This document shows positions 19,861-24,356 of a DNA stretch of 64,000 bases, piece by piece. Source of the stretch: Flavobacteriales bacterium (GTDB taxonomy: Bacteria; Bacteroidota; Bacteroidia; UBA10329); assembly GCA_016124845.1 (NCBI GenBank), contig WGMW01000033.1, forward strand, positions 62,001 to 126,000, in the 5' to 3' direction. A program made the position numbers and the translations under genes. Positions within the stretch are counted from its first letter, which is position 1, and every line of letters begins with the position of its first letter. Below the pieces are notes generated by a model. It was not told the origin of the DNA. It ran no database searches and was given only the letters and a program-made list of their open reading frames with translations.

Positions 19861-20457
19861 TTAAGATAGTGTTTCTGGATTCTTCCAACGAAACCGATAG
19901 GGAAGTAGCGCATCTTCTTCTGCGTAGTCAATTCCAATCCGTGGACCAATTTCAATCTCGGTCGGATTCACTGCAATCGAATGGTCTTCGATCCAAACTG
20001 TATCTCCCAAAAGATCAAGATTGTTGTGTTGGCGGAATTCAATTCCCAATGCTTTGGTCAGTTTGCCCGGACCATCAGCAATTCGATGCAATGGTTCTTT
20101 GGTTTTCCTTCGGGAAACAATGGTTTCTATGCCTTCTAACGGATGAATTCCACGAACCAGAACCGCATGCGGAATGTCCTTCTTATTCGTCACCACATTG
20201 AATAGTGAATGCACGCCATAGCACAGATACACGTACGAGATTCCAGGTTTTCCGAACATGATCTCAGTGCGGTCGGTTCGTTTTCCGCCATGGGCGTGTG
20301 AAGCTTTGTCGACCGTTCCTGCATACGCTTCTGTTTCTGTGATAATCCCTTTGGTGATGATGCCATCGACATTCGTGCAAAGCACTTTTCCGATTAGTTC
20401 CTGCGCAATTAGAACCACATCGTCACGGTCATAAAAATCAACTTGCAACTTCTTCAC
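19861..20457 (-). CDS. 3-methyladenine DNA glycosylase (AAG/MPG type)
   Basis: A 198-residue base-excision-repair glycosylase that removes alkylated purines. Family motifs: 'AQELIGKVLCT', 'ITETEAYAGTVDKASHAHGGKRTDRTEIMFG' (Glu of 'TETEAY' is the catalytic base), 'GISYVYLCYGVHSLFNVVT' (base-stacking Tyr), and 'ADGPGKLTKALGI'. Length is normal. The start overlaps the recQ stop by 4 bp, so it is co-transcribed with recQ and possibly with the hipBST module upstream. Confidence 0.93.
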   Translation of the reverse strand: MKKLQVDFYDRDDVVLIAQELIGKVLCTNVDGIITKGIITETEAYAGTVDKASHAHGGKRTDRTEIMFGKPGISYVYLCYGVHSLFNVVTNKKDIPHAVLVRGIHPLEGIETIVSRRKTKEPLHRIADGPGKLTKALGIEFRQHNNLDLLGDTVWIEDHSIAVNPTEIEIGPRIGIDYAEEDALLPYRFRWKNPETLS

Positions 20458-22343
20458 GGCAGTCCGACCTTTCCGTTCATGTGATAGATCAGTTCGTTAT
20501 TGTCAAGCATTAATTGAACTGCTTTAAGTATCTCTTTTTCAGGACGTTCAACCTTTTCGAAAAGTTCATCAATACTTGTTTCCGAACCGATGTTAGACTT
20601 CACGAGGTCGATGTCTTTCTCATCCAGCGAAAGCTTAGAAAGTCCTCGACACACATCACATTTTCCGCAGTGTTTGCTTTCCATCTCTCCGAAATATTTG
20701 AGCAGCATCTGACTTCGGCAGACCTTATCACTTTCCACAAAATGAATAGCTGCATTGATGCGGTCCTTGATAAGTTGAATGCGCAATTCGTAAACCTCTT
20801 TCGAAAGGTAAATGTCCTGTTTGCGAACGCGGCCACCCACAAATGTGAGCTTCGGTAGTCCGGTTGAGGGTCTGTAGTCGATAACCTTCAAACCATGCAG
20901 TTTTTGCAGAATAGCGGTTGCCTGTTCCAACGAATAACCAGAACGTTTGGCGATGAGTTGTTCGTTTATTGGAACGAATTCTTCGAACAGTCTTCCATAG
21001 GAACGTAGCAACACCTTGGTCAATCGGTTCACCTTCGGATTGCGCATTTCTAAATCGTATAGCGTATCGTGATTGACGAGAATCTGTAGTGACGAACGCG
21101 GGTCCGAATTGGACGAAACCTGCAAAACATCTGCCTTTTCCAAGAACGAAATGGATTTCATTACCTCATTGGGTTTCCATTTGTAGCGGTCGCAGAAAGC
21201 GGCAAGGTCAAAGTCGAACCAAACGTCTTCACCGCTTCCTTCTGCCAGTTGGAAATAACTGCCCAATGCATAATACATTTCCTTGATGCGTTCGCGGGTT
21301 GGGAATTCGTTCTCCAAGCGCTTCTTCAGTTCGGTGATGTCTTTCTCTCCAACAAGTGCCACCGCATAGCTCTCTTTGCCATCGCGCCCTGCGCGGCCAG
21401 CTTCTTGAAAGTATGCCTCCAAACTGTCTGGGAAACCGAGATGAATGACCAAACGTACATCGGGTTTGTCGATACCCATTCCGAAGGCATTCGTAGAAAC
21501 GATAATTCGCGTCTTATCATTGATCCAATCATTCTGGCGTGTCTGTCGTTCCTCAAATGAAAGTCCTGCATGGTAGAACGAAGCCGAAAGCTTTTGTGAT
21601 TGCAGAAACTGCGCAACTTCCTTGGTTCGTCTCCGATTTCGAACATAGATGATGGCACTTCCAGATGTTTTCTCCAACACGCGCAGCATGCGTCCTTTCA
21701 GGTCATCTTCTCGCAGCACCATGTAAGAAAGGTTTTCGCGAGCGAACGATTTTCTAATGACGTTCTTCTTTTTGAACGCCAGTTTTTCCTGAATGTCTTC
21801 CACAACTTTCGGTGTGGCGGTGGCGGTCAGAGCAAGCACAGGAACTTTCGGTAGTAGTTCTCTTATTTCCGCTATCTGTAAATAGGGCGGGCGAAAGTCA
21901 TAACCCCATTGCGAGATGCAATGTGCCTCATCCACCGCAATCAGATTCACGTTCATTTTCTGAAGCCGCACTTGCACAATTTCTGTCCGCAAGCGCTCAG
22001 GACTCATGTACAGAAACTTCACATCTCCATACACGCAATTGTCCAGAATGGTGTCTATCTGCGAGAAGTGCAGCCCCGAATGCAGCGCCACCGCATTGAT
22101 ACCTTTCTTCTTCAGGTTTTCCACCTGATCTTTCATCAACGCAATGAGTGGCGAAATGACGATACAAATGCCATCCATGCACAGCACTGGAACTTGAAAA
22201 CAGATGGATTTTCCACCTCCAGTAGGCAGCAAGGCCAACACGTCTCTGCCATCCAAAGCCTCTTGAATGATCTCGCGCTGCTGCGCACGAAATGCATCAA
22301 AACCCCAGTATTGTTTGAGTATGGATTCTGGCGTAACGCTCAT
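20454..22343 (-). CDS. recQ: ATP-dependent DNA helicase RecQ-like
   Basis: A 629-residue SF2 helicase: Walker A 'LLPTGGGKSICFQVP', DEAH box in 'AVDEAHCISQWGYDFRPPY', 'ALTATATP', motif V/VI 'TNAFGMGIDKPDVR' and 'EAGRAGRDGKES'. A zinc-binding cluster ('CRSQMLLKYFG...HCGKCDVC') lies far downstream at ~530-560, and only ~75 residues follow it, so there is no HRDC domain. It unwinds DNA in repair and recombination. The first 22 codons are duplicated as a relic at 23969-24046 on the far side of the hipBST genes. The start now lies 27 bp after the hipT stop. Confidence 0.93.
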   Translation of the reverse strand: MSVTPESILKQYWGFDAFRAQQREIIQEALDGRDVLALLPTGGGKSICFQVPVLCMDGICIVISPLIALMKDQVENLKKKGINAVALHSGLHFSQIDTILDNCVYGDVKFLYMSPERLRTEIVQVRLQKMNVNLIAVDEAHCISQWGYDFRPPYLQIAEIRELLPKVPVLALTATATPKVVEDIQEKLAFKKKNVIRKSFARENLSYMVLREDDLKGRMLRVLEKTSGSAIIYVRNRRRTKEVAQFLQSQKLSASFYHAGLSFEERQTRQNDWINDKTRIIVSTNAFGMGIDKPDVRLVIHLGFPDSLEAYFQEAGRAGRDGKESYAVALVGEKDITELKKRLENEFPTRERIKEMYYALGSYFQLAEGSGEDVWFDFDLAAFCDRYKWKPNEVMKSISFLEKADVLQVSSNSDPRSSLQILVNHDTLYDLEMRNPKVNRLTKVLLRSYGRLFEEFVPINEQLIAKRSGYSLEQATAILQKLHGLKVIDYRPSTGLPKLTFVGGRVRKQDIYLSKEVYELRIQLIKDRINAAIHFVESDKVCRSQMLLKYFGEMESKHCGKCDVCRGLSKLSLDEKDIDLVKSNIGSETSIDELFEKVERPEKEILKAVQLMLDNNELIYHMNGKVGLP

Positions 22344-22359
22344 CTACGCCAAAGATAGA
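22277..22359. repeat. Direct repeat left copy (recQ start)
   Basis: These 83 bp cover the first 22 codons of recQ plus 16 bp upstream. They match 23980-24062 at 79 of 83 positions, in the same orientation, and flank the hipBST genes. See the finding on the recQ insertion. Confidence 0.93.
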
Positions 22360-22370
22360 TGGTTGTGGAG

Positions 22371-23315
22371 CTATGAGAGATGCAATTGGGAATATCGCTG
22401 ATCAAGCAGTTGGCCGTAAGCCGACTTCATTTCGTCCGAAAGAAACGAGTCATTGAGAAGTTTGACGGCTTTCGGTCGGTTGCGCTTCATGCGATTGAAT
22501 GCACTTTCCATCTGTTTGTCCGTAAGTCCAAGCCCATTGCCGAATCGGTTAAAATGTTCTCGTTGGAGTTTTCTTTTCTTTCCCGCCAGCGTCAACGCCA
22601 ATTCTTCTTGGTCGTCTGGAAGAATGACGGCAACGTTCAGCAGATCATAGGCAGGAGCAAGCATCCAGCCCGATGCACTTTCTATCATCGAAAAGTTCTT
22701 TAGGTGCATGTCATTGTTCCCTGTCAAGAAGGAAAACAGGGTCAGTTCGAAGAAAAGGATCTTGTCAAGAAGGGTATTGCTCGAATAACTGTCGAGTGCC
22801 TTGCCGACCTTTTCCATGGAACTTCTGTACTTGTCAAAGGCTTCGGTGACCTGAAACATATCGAGCATGTGAATCTTCTCTCCGCTGTCAGTTCTGTCAA
22901 TGCGTTTAGTGATGTATGACAGTTCGCCAGAGGCCAGCCGAATGAGGGAAGAGGGAACCACGCGAATACCGAAAGCCTCAGCAATGCGCATGGTGACGTG
23001 TTCGTTCTCAGGCATTTGAGGAAATCGGTCGGATGGTGGTTTGAAGATGTATTGGCCGCCAAGCGCACCGACAACGGTCAGTCGTGCATCCGCTTTTTTT
23101 CTGGCGGTTGTTACCAACGACATGGACAATTTGGGCTGCACACCAGGAACGGTTACGCTGCGTTCAACCACCTGCTTGGCCAGCTCATCCATCTGATTCA
23201 ATGAATATTCGATGGTCGGTGGTTGGCGTGTGCCGAAAAACTCTACGGAGCATTTCTCGTGGAAGTCGGCATCACCATCCAACGGCTGATAACAGTAAAG
23301 GCATTTACGCGACAT
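22371..23315 (-). CDS. hipT: HipT-like Ser/Thr kinase toxin (HipA C-terminal core)
   Basis: 314 residues from ATG 23315. A small Cys-His segment ('CLYCYQPL...FHEKC', Cys5/Cys8/Cys22) heads the protein, as in many Bacteroidota HipA-like proteins. The kinase core has a putative autophosphorylation motif Ser64-Met-Ser66 in 'VQPKLSMSL', Lys92 in 'YIFKP', catalytic Asp202/Asn207 in 'GNNDMHLKN', and metal Asp224 in 'APAYDLLN'. It lacks the HipA N-subdomain, which is encoded by the separate upstream gene, the layout of tripartite HipBST. Known HipT phosphorylates a tRNA synthetase; the target here is unknown. Confidence 0.88.
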   Translation of the reverse strand: MSRKCLYCYQPLDGDADFHEKCSVEFFGTRQPPTIEYSLNQMDELAKQVVERSVTVPGVQPKLSMSLVTTARKKADARLTVVGALGGQYIFKPPSDRFPQMPENEHVTMRIAEAFGIRVVPSSLIRLASGELSYITKRIDRTDSGEKIHMLDMFQVTEAFDKYRSSMEKVGKALDSYSSNTLLDKILFFELTLFSFLTGNNDMHLKNFSMIESASGWMLAPAYDLLNVAVILPDDQEELALTLAGKKRKLQREHFNRFGNGLGLTDKQMESAFNRMKRNRPKAVKLLNDSFLSDEMKSAYGQLLDQRYSQLHLS

Positions 23316-23640
23316 CTTCCGTAGGAATTGGTTCGACACTTACCGCACCGATGCAGTTCTGGCAGCAGGCCAGTAGAAGTCCCATACGGTCGTTGCGGTT
23401 GATCTTCCAGTTCTTAGACGCAATATCGAGCAGCCAGCCTTCGGGTATCAGGCCTTCGAAAAACGGGAACAGCCGATTGTCTTGATAAGGACTGTCGGTA
23501 ACAGGCATGGTGAAGGTGATCGGTCGGTTCGGATGTTTTTTCACATACGAAGCATCGTACCGAAAGACAAATTCACCATCGTTGGTTTCGGTGATCGTTC
23601 CTGCCAAGCTGTTCTTGTAAAACACCTTTCCGCTTCTCAT
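23305..23640 (-). CDS. hipS: HipS-like antitoxin (detached HipA N-subdomain)
   Basis: A 111-residue protein matching only the N-subdomain of HipA ('GKVFYKNSLAGTITETNDGEFVFRYDASY', 'PITFTMPVT', 'LFPFFEGLIPEGWLLD'). In E. coli HipBST, HipS, not HipB, neutralises HipT by inserting a Trp into its active site; Trp69 in 'PEGWLL' is the natural candidate here (inference from family). The start overlaps the hipB stop by 4 bp; its end overlaps the hipT start by 11 bp, so all three are co-translated. Confidence 0.88.
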   Translation of the reverse strand: MRSGKVFYKNSLAGTITETNDGEFVFRYDASYVKKHPNRPITFTMPVTDSPYQDNRLFPFFEGLIPEGWLLDIASKNWKINRNDRMGLLLACCQNCIGAVSVEPIPTEDVA

Positions 23641-23846
23641 CTGCTCAGGTCTTTGCTGTTCACAGGAGCAAGTTCATGCCCGAACATGCGTAAGACAAGG
23701 TTCACCTTTTTCATATTCAGGTTGGTTTTTCCCTGTTCTATTTTGCGAACCACCGTAAGTGCCACACCAGCGCGTTCTGCAAACTCTTCCTGTGTGAGGT
23801 TCACCTCCTTTCTCCGCGCTTTAACAAACTCAGCCAATCCTTTCAT
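23637..23846 (-). CDS. hipB: HipB-like XRE-family transcriptional regulator
   Basis: A 69-residue helix-turn-helix protein: 'GLAEFVKARRKEVNLTQEEFAERAGVALTVVRKIEQGKTNLNMKKV'. The HTH recognition region is 'ALTVVRKIEQGKTN'. It is the first gene of the hipBST operon and probably represses it by binding palindromes at 23845-23946. The ATG overlaps the first of these palindromes, so bound HipB would cover the start codon and the promoter. Confidence 0.92.
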   Translation of the reverse strand: MKGLAEFVKARRKEVNLTQEEFAERAGVALTVVRKIEQGKTNLNMKKVNLVLRMFGHELAPVNSKDLSR

Positions 23847-23946
23847 TATATGCTGATTGATATAATTTAATGTAAAAATAAAGAATTATATGTTATGAGA
23901 TATAATTTGCATTACCAAATCTTATTTATATGTAAATAGATATAGA
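23845..23946 (-). promoter_or_regulatory. Three phased hip-type operators and hipB promoter
   Basis: ATTATAT-N8-ATATAAT occurs at 23845-23866 and at 23885-23906. A degenerate copy (TTTATAT-N8-ATATAGA) is at 23925-23946. The starts are exactly 40 bp apart. The classical E. coli hip operator is also an inverted repeat with an 8-nt spacer (TATCC-N8-GGATA). A promoter fits between them on the minus strand: TTTG (23916-23919), 20 nt, TAACATAT (23888-23895), so the -7 box lies inside the second operator. Confidence 0.83.
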
Positions 23947-23968
23947 AACAGTAGTCTGAACAGGCTGT

Positions 23969-24046
23969 TCAGGTCTGCGGCTGCTGCGCACGAAATCCAT
24001 CAAAACCCCAGTATTGTTTGAGTATGGATTCTGGCGTGGCACTCAT
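23969..24046 (-). pseudogene. recQ 5'-end relic
   Basis: An ATG at 24046 opens 25 codons beginning 'MSATPESILKQYWGFDGFRAQQ', identical to the intact RecQ N-terminus in 20 of 22 residues, then runs into PQT and a stop (TGA at 23969-23971). It sits 20 bp after the stop of the ABM-like gene, exactly where recQ would have begun before hipBST was inserted. Confidence 0.92.
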
Positions 24047-24062
24047 CTACGCCAAAGATAGA
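23980..24062. repeat. Direct repeat right copy (recQ start relic)
   Basis: 79 of 83 bases match 22277-22359. The mismatches are one in 'gaaat(g/c)cat' and three in the 'gcgt..c.ct' codons. A perfect 13-bp palindrome, gaacaggctgttc (23958-23970), borders it on the hip side. Confidence 0.93.
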
Positions 24063-24065
24063 GTG

Positions 24066-24356
24066 TTAATGCCCGCTATCTACGGTCGACCAAGCATGCG
24101 CTGGAACCGAGAAAAGTGTTTTGGTCACTTTCCACGTGTTGCGGAAAAGGTCAGATTCGCGGTAGGCTTCCAAGGCATCTTCGGTTTCCCACTTGCTGAT
24201 GGTGAAGAACACGTACGGACGGTACTTGTCGCGCACAAGTTCAAGGCTACGGCAGCCATCGAATGCACGGATCTTGGGGCCGCTCACCTCAAAGGTTTTC
24301 AAAAATTCATCTACCAAATGCTCTTGGAAAGTAAGCTGTACAATGCGCGTTATCAT
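24066..24356 (-). CDS. Antibiotic-biosynthesis-monooxygenase-like (ABM/dimeric ferredoxin fold) protein
   Basis: A 96-residue small protein: 'MITRIVQLTFQEHLVDEFLKTF', 'IRAFDGCRSLELVRDKYRPYVFFTISKWETEDALEAYRES' and 'LFRNTW' match the ABM fold with its conserved 'FxxxxxWxxxxAhxxHxxS' pattern. These proteins dimerise; the substrate is unknown. The start overlaps the stop of the SAM hydrolase gene by 4 bp. Before the hip insertion, recQ probably followed it directly. Confidence 0.85.
   Translation of the reverse strand: MITRIVQLTFQEHLVDEFLKTFEVSGPKIRAFDGCRSLELVRDKYRPYVFFTISKWETEDALEAYRESDLFRNTWKVTKTLFSVPAHAWSTVDSGH

Follow-up and report, generated by a model that had tools for sequence, protein, structure and literature searches.

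How chromosomal toxin-antitoxin modules move without a mobile element is an open question, and it is touched by a locus in a 64,000-nucleotide stretch of DNA (hereafter the window) from a Flavobacteriales bacterium (class Bacteroidia, GTDB UBA10329; GenBank assembly GCA_016124845.1, contig WGMW01000033.1, positions 62,001 to 126,000 of the forward strand), in which a hipBST operon, coding for a regulator, a predicted antitoxin and a predicted kinase toxin, lies between two copies of the start of recQ. Where did this operon come from, whose sequence is the second copy, and what holds the arrangement in place? Comparison with relatives strongly supports an insertion of hipBST at the recQ start, most simply read as an operon that came from outside and entered the junction between recQ and an ABM-like gene in this lineage. 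Among the loci sampled in a wider survey, enclosing repeats, some of them dispersed sequences, are found around hipBST at about one in nine and around ParE/RelE toxins at about one in seven. We set out below the evidence for insertion, the possible origins of the second copy and the routes by which the operon may have entered, and compare the locus with known systems.

An insertion at the start of recQ

The two copies form an 83-bp direct repeat (22277-22359 and 23980-24062, both read on the minus strand; coordinates are those of the window unless a locus is named), identical at 79 of 83 positions, with starts 1703 bp apart and an E-value of 4e-31 when the window is compared with itself. They were also the only long matches in a search of the bacterium's own genome with the repeat, the other five covering 14-24 bases, with no third long copy. 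The near copy comprises 16 bp upstream of recQ and the first 22 codons of the intact gene, whose ATG lies at 22343. The far copy is a relic of the recQ start, an ATG open reading frame of 25 codons ending in TGA, and it lies 19 bp after the ABM-like gene. A first-pass annotation of this DNA had described the repeat, the 25-codon relic, the hip genes between the copies and the 27 bp that separate the hipT stop codon from the recQ ATG, all of which were reproduced. It had also placed the relic exactly where recQ should begin after the ABM-like gene, and this position is indeed the native one, held by recQ in five relatives.

The annotation further suggested looking in close relatives for an uninterrupted ABM-recQ junction, and some of them have one. 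Eight genus-mates were searched, seven of which have a RecQ match, and in five of the eight (G002, G003, G004, G005 and G007; RecQ 72-81% identical) the junction was found uninterrupted, with a short gap, one copy of the repeat and no hipBST, while G006 and G008 have no ABM gene beside recQ in the fetched stretch and are uninformative on the junction. Because it is uninterrupted, single-copy and hipBST-free in five relatives, hipBST at recQ is read as an insertion. HipT has a match in only one of the eight genus-mates (G008, 65% identical), at another genomic place, and its nearest relative among the 59 genomes searched is 75% identical and belongs to a different family (G019).

Carriage of hipBST by plasmids or phages was considered and set aside: matches occur in eight of 72,556 plasmid records, all below 60% identity, and 26 candidate stretches yielded six loci on viral contigs, so that close relatives are rare in those collections. 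Matches to hipT in G054:C5, G250:C42, G273:C12, G219:C7 and G017:C3 have one or two stop codons within the matched stretch and are either decayed copies or matches that include a terminal stop. The region downstream of recQ also varies within the genus: L040 and L041 lack a match to the glycosylase gene, and in L039 some 3.7 kb separates that gene from the methyltransferase gene.

Direct repeats around other toxin-antitoxin loci

The survey covered the class Bacteroidia and relatives and gathered 158 hipBST loci, of which 155 were kept after removal of three duplicates and 130 had 700 bp of flank on both sides; a module was counted as enclosed when a direct repeat surrounded it with both copies within 400 bp. 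Enclosure by repeats of 47 to 239 bp was found at 15 of the 130 loci (the same 15 among 136 at a flank of 520 bp), against none of 48 YCII genes and one of 77 housekeeping genes (recQ, trmD and rlmH, a set that takes in the recQ of this genome and leaves out loci cut by contig ends), with one-sided Fisher p values of 0.009 and 0.006, respectively. Pseudo-modules placed elsewhere in the hipBST loci were enclosed in 13 of 3502 cases, from seven loci. Loci of ParE/RelE toxins were enclosed in 12 of 80 cases, a result less secure than that for hipBST because their repeat background is higher (17 of 1049 pseudo-modules); the antitoxin gene was not located in them, and two of them (L427 and L438) resemble local repeats rather than clean duplications. 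With the limit set at 800 instead of 400 bp, the counts were 16/129 for hipBST, 16/78 for ParE/RelE, 0/47 for YCII and 1/81 for housekeeping genes. Twenty-five repeat pairs span hipBST within 1.6 kb, and in 17 of these, found at 15 loci, the edges lie 106-383 bp ahead of hipB and 8-101 bp beyond hipT, so that the enclosed unit is compact, as is the insert at recQ. Three further loci (L078, L083 and L089) carry repeats on flanks too short for the counts, L078 being retained in the codon test below.

Repeat lengths range from 42 to 240 bp across loci, over unrelated targets. Gene starts are duplicated at recQ and at a cyclase gene (L360), and 3' ends at genes for a CoA-transferase (L078), RlmH (L243), a class V aminotransferase (L344), two sorting-domain proteins (L073 and L431), an alpha/beta hydrolase (L434), a tyrosine recombinase (L445) and an ABC transporter (L452); at L078 and L434 the repeat ends 12 to 15 bases before the gene end. 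The first-pass annotation had suggested looking for a recQ 5' fragment at the edge of hipBST units elsewhere. None of the 154 other hipBST loci carries recQ sequence, the nearest approach being a weak 32-base match in L195 (E 0.02), so a permanent recQ edge on hipBST is not supported and the idea of a recQ fragment as a fixed part of such elements was dropped.

Several of the loci have features of their own. In an alignment, DNA downstream of rlmH (L243, 4948-5004, and L284-L289) looks unconserved even among close relatives, which would fit an insertion hotspot at the rlmH 3' end in these bacteria too. The 88-bp repeat that encloses hipBST in L219 (2585-2671 and 4751-4837) gives 20 matches in 10 of 36 genomes of its genus (for one match, most of its length falls beyond the repeat), and same-strand pairs of this type stand 1.2-1.7 kb apart around other genes (G105:C8, G167:C59; L333, L337, L324, L339), among them genes for a DUF4143 ATPase and for HxlR-like and YCII-like proteins, the last two named by eye from translations. 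In L148 (5205-8806) hipBST and a separate HipA_C-domain gene are stacked between repeat copies, with a third, partial copy beyond; by eye, this repeat resembles a tRNA 3' half followed by a terminator. Along 6 kb of L246 (2930-8994) a 185-bp repeat occurs five times, in full or in part, and hipBST lies in one of the intervals.

Origin of the second copy

The second copy of a gene end may be the recipient's own sequence, freshly duplicated, or that of a donor. A fresh duplicate no longer read as a gene should gather changes at all codon positions, and the differences between copies were therefore compared with a null of a neutral relic beside a constrained gene, for which our own estimate is about 0.43 of differences at third positions and about 0.35 synonymous. 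Ten pairs with a real-looking open reading frame were used, picked after looking and all supported by Pfam, the last one confirmed post-test. Pooled, the pairs show 97 differences, of which 57 fall at third positions and 53 are synonymous, an excess over the null with p=0.001 and 6e-5, respectively (0.02 and 0.007 without L078, where 13 of 15 differences are synonymous), and a bootstrap over loci places the synonymous fraction between 0.40 and 0.69. Taken locus by locus, the synonymous excess is seen at L078, L360, L434, L243 and L445, and falls short of p 0.05 at the present locus and at L073, L344, L431 and L452. A donor copy is favoured because of this pooled synonymous excess over drift, which suggests, from the coding cases together and not from recQ alone, that the gene end of a related donor came in with the module.

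The order of changes along the recQ repeat can also be read against the nearest relative, by which three changes, all at 5' sites, belong to the near copy and one, at a 3' site, to the far copy. This pattern weakly fits a single crossover inside the repeat, with four sites only. Elsewhere, polarity against an empty site was usable in L200 and L243 only; the outer flank of L078 matched neither relative, L073 has no close relative, and the L219 repeat is dispersed.

Routes of entry and persistence

On balance we lean towards a route in which hipBST entered the ABM-recQ junction together with a donor recQ 5' end, by one homologous edge and one edge that was illegitimate or came from a circle, and was kept by addiction. 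The incoming DNA would have carried hipBST joined to the recQ 5' end of a related donor. Homologous recombination within that gene end would have formed one edge and rebuilt recQ, and joining without homology at the other would have left the recipient's own recQ start behind as the relic; a circular molecule entering by a single crossover would give the same end product. Once in place, this unstable structure could be lost through recombination between the repeats; the antitoxin genes would go with it, and leftover HipT would then be expected to harm the cell, so that the arrangement would persist.

Several observations weigh against this account. At recQ itself two of the four differences are synonymous; the copies differ from each other at four sites and from the nearest relative at six and eight, a relation that simple duplication followed by drift fits equally well; and the polarity is less clear against two of the five relatives (L040 and L041) and imperfect in L200 and L243, where the order of sites fits in part. 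The claim of the first-pass annotation that hipBST arrived with a donor's recQ start draws its support from the ten pooled cases more than from the four sites at recQ, where polarity is weak. When six open reading frames lacking Pfam support are added to the pool (L460, with no Pfam match, and L435, L432, L462, L200 and L427, outside the Pfam scan), third positions fall to 70 of 145 (p=0.12), the synonymous excess holding at p=0.006. Some of the counted repeats, moreover, are dispersed or multi-copy sequences and not clean target duplications: L085, L089, L102, L117 and L246 carry additional copies close by, partial copies occur at L103, L148 and L247, and the two-copy filter covered 1.5 kb only, so that L085 and L102 passed it and yet have more copies farther out. 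Finally, no excision or mobility was observed, the steps of the mechanism all being inferred.

The strongest competitor, to which we give roughly a one-in-four chance, is a true long target duplication, in which a break whose ends lay about 83 bp apart took up the module and both copies are the recipient's own, later drifted apart. Against each of the five relatives the two recQ copies together show 5 to 19 differing sites, against each other only four; their four differences lack a clear codon bias, and long, variable target duplications of about 100 bp are described for restriction-modification genes (PMC3874152). The pooled synonymous excess, however, goes beyond what a neutral relic beside a constrained gene predicts, L078 shows it in nearly every difference, and in L148, by eye, the terminator-like stems at corresponding positions of the two copies differ in sequence.

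It seems to us improbable that a recombinase of the tyrosine or another family, supplied in trans, integrated a minimal integrase-less element at a specific site, with the repeats as attL and attR. Some targets do resemble integration sites, namely the rlmH 3' end in L243 and, by eye, the tRNA 3' half-like sequence in L148 (ARAGORN found no tRNA there); gene ends are kept whole by the repeat copy, and the recQ polarity fits a crossover inside the repeat. But the insert has no integrase gene, the repeats vary in length and lie over unrelated targets, no common end motif is apparent by eye in the printed boundaries, and folding of the recQ copies is barely better than that of shuffles (z -0.57 and -1.74). 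This weak folding, where an attC site should form a hairpin, judged by structure only and with no attC model, led us to reject an integron gene cassette. Of the 12 stretches in the folding test, that of L247 was left out for its wrong orientation; those of L148 (z -4.85), which holds a terminator-like hairpin, and of L089 (z -2.38) folded better than shuffles, and the other nine ranged from -1.79 to +1.43. An ancestral hipBST at recQ, lost elsewhere in the genus by recombination between the repeats, would leave precisely the empty junction of the relatives but is disfavoured as very improbable, requiring losses in five relatives with RecQ 72-81% identical, with no relic visible in the aligned junctions and with identity between the two copies here still at 95%.

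A bolder generalisation can be ventured, though we hold it doubtful: small toxin-antitoxin operons may be integrase-free, homology-guided travelling units. Recombination between the flanking repeats would release a circle of module plus one gene end, and RecA alone would suffice for its integration at that gene end in a related strain, with post-segregational killing to stabilise the repeats. Addiction itself would then make the circle cycle workable. Since donor and recipient sequence may both be preserved in gene-end repeats, comparing strains can test the route of entry, and bench experiments can test whether addiction is linked to repeat stability.

The inserted operon and its surroundings

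The inserted unit occupies the 1620 bp between the repeat copies (22360..23979), and no integrase or transposase was identified there, hipB, hipS and hipT being the only genes found between the copies. All three are unbroken open reading frames on the minus strand. HipB (23637..23846, 69 aa) is an HTH regulator by its Pfam HTH_3 match and scores 69.9 bits against NCBIfam couple_hipB, just under the cut-off of 71.65; HipS (23305..23640, 111 aa) is the predicted antitoxin, with HipS(Lp) of Legionella (7vkb_B) as its closest solved structure; and HipT (22371..23339, 322 aa) is the predicted kinase toxin, with Legionella HipT (7vkb and 8ezr, E 6e-47) as its best PDB matches and the motif TGNNDMHLKN kept across a ten-protein alignment, bar N/A at one position. 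The N-subdomain of HipA is split off as HipS, Pfam Couple_hipA matching HipS only and HipA_C matching HipT only. Two 24-bp repeats at the hipB start (23845-23868 and 23885-23908, together spanning 23845..23908; 79% identical) may serve as operators, and a palindrome search picked out a terminator-like palindrome of 17 bp (23956..23972, minus strand) where the insert ends on its outer side, sites of this kind being no more numerous in the region than in shuffles. The best reading of the whole is a horizontally acquired, self-contained operon.

The genes around it share its orientation on the minus strand. The rebuilt target gene, recQ (20454..22343, 629 aa), is intact, with Pfam DEAD, Helicase_C and RecQ_Zn_bind domains, and its protein scores above the cut-off of NCBIfam recQ_fam and below that of the recQ equivalog model. 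Upstream lies its native neighbour, the ABM-like gene (24066..24356, Pfam ABM), which adjoins recQ in the five relatives, and downstream a 3-methyladenine DNA glycosylase gene (19861..20457, Pfam Pur_DNA_glyco), so that recQ and this DNA-repair gene now stand directly behind a toxin-antitoxin operon. The window holds two further direct repeat pairs of about 67% identity (29231-30809/32910-34482 and 50532-51023/51400-51891), perhaps paralogous genes.

Comparison with known systems

Integrative elements at tRNA genes or rlmH restore the gene end with a copy of the target, and the present locus is like them in that a copied gene end restores the target gene. The first-pass annotation had likened it to integrating elements, an analogy that is not supported in its details: unlike those elements, the insert has no integrase and no constant site, no other hipBST locus carries a recQ fragment, and the repeats differ from locus to locus. 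Long target duplication by restriction-modification genes, reportedly described by Nobusato et al. in 2000 (Gene 259:99) and by Furuta et al. in 2010, is the nearer parallel. Several sources describe the insertion of these genes with target duplications that are long and vary in size, around 100 bp (PMC3874152, PMC1643837, PMC3031569, PMC3154945). The likeness lies in a compact addiction-type unit between variable direct repeats of about 100 bp; at recQ the site is empty and single-copy in five relatives, and the insert here has the 83-bp repeat at both edges. In contrast to the restriction-modification case, the cargo is a hipBST toxin-antitoxin operon, the sample is drawn from Bacteroidia and relatives, and the pooled coding copies look like donor and recipient sequence and not like a fresh duplicate. 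Events homologous at one side only are known as homology-facilitated illegitimate recombination of linear DNA in competent bacteria and in E. coli conjugation (PMC3240628), whereas here the route is read from sequence alone.

Gene order (B-S-T), domain content and kinase motif are as described for the known hipBST systems of E. coli O127 and Legionella (PMC6581861, PMC8262856, PMC10627512). In hipBST systems HipT is toxic through phosphorylation of TrpS and HipS neutralises it; the operon at recQ, likened to them by sequence, may act in the same way. An insertion footprint is not mentioned for hipBST in the available text of PMC8262856 and PMC10627512, the former containing neither 'direct repeat' nor 'horizontal', and the open-licence literature searched showed no apparent account of such a footprint around toxin-antitoxin genes. 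Set beside these systems, the locus is best read as a toxin-antitoxin form of insertion with long target duplication in which, probably, homology provided the anchor and the harm done by excision keeps the unit in place.

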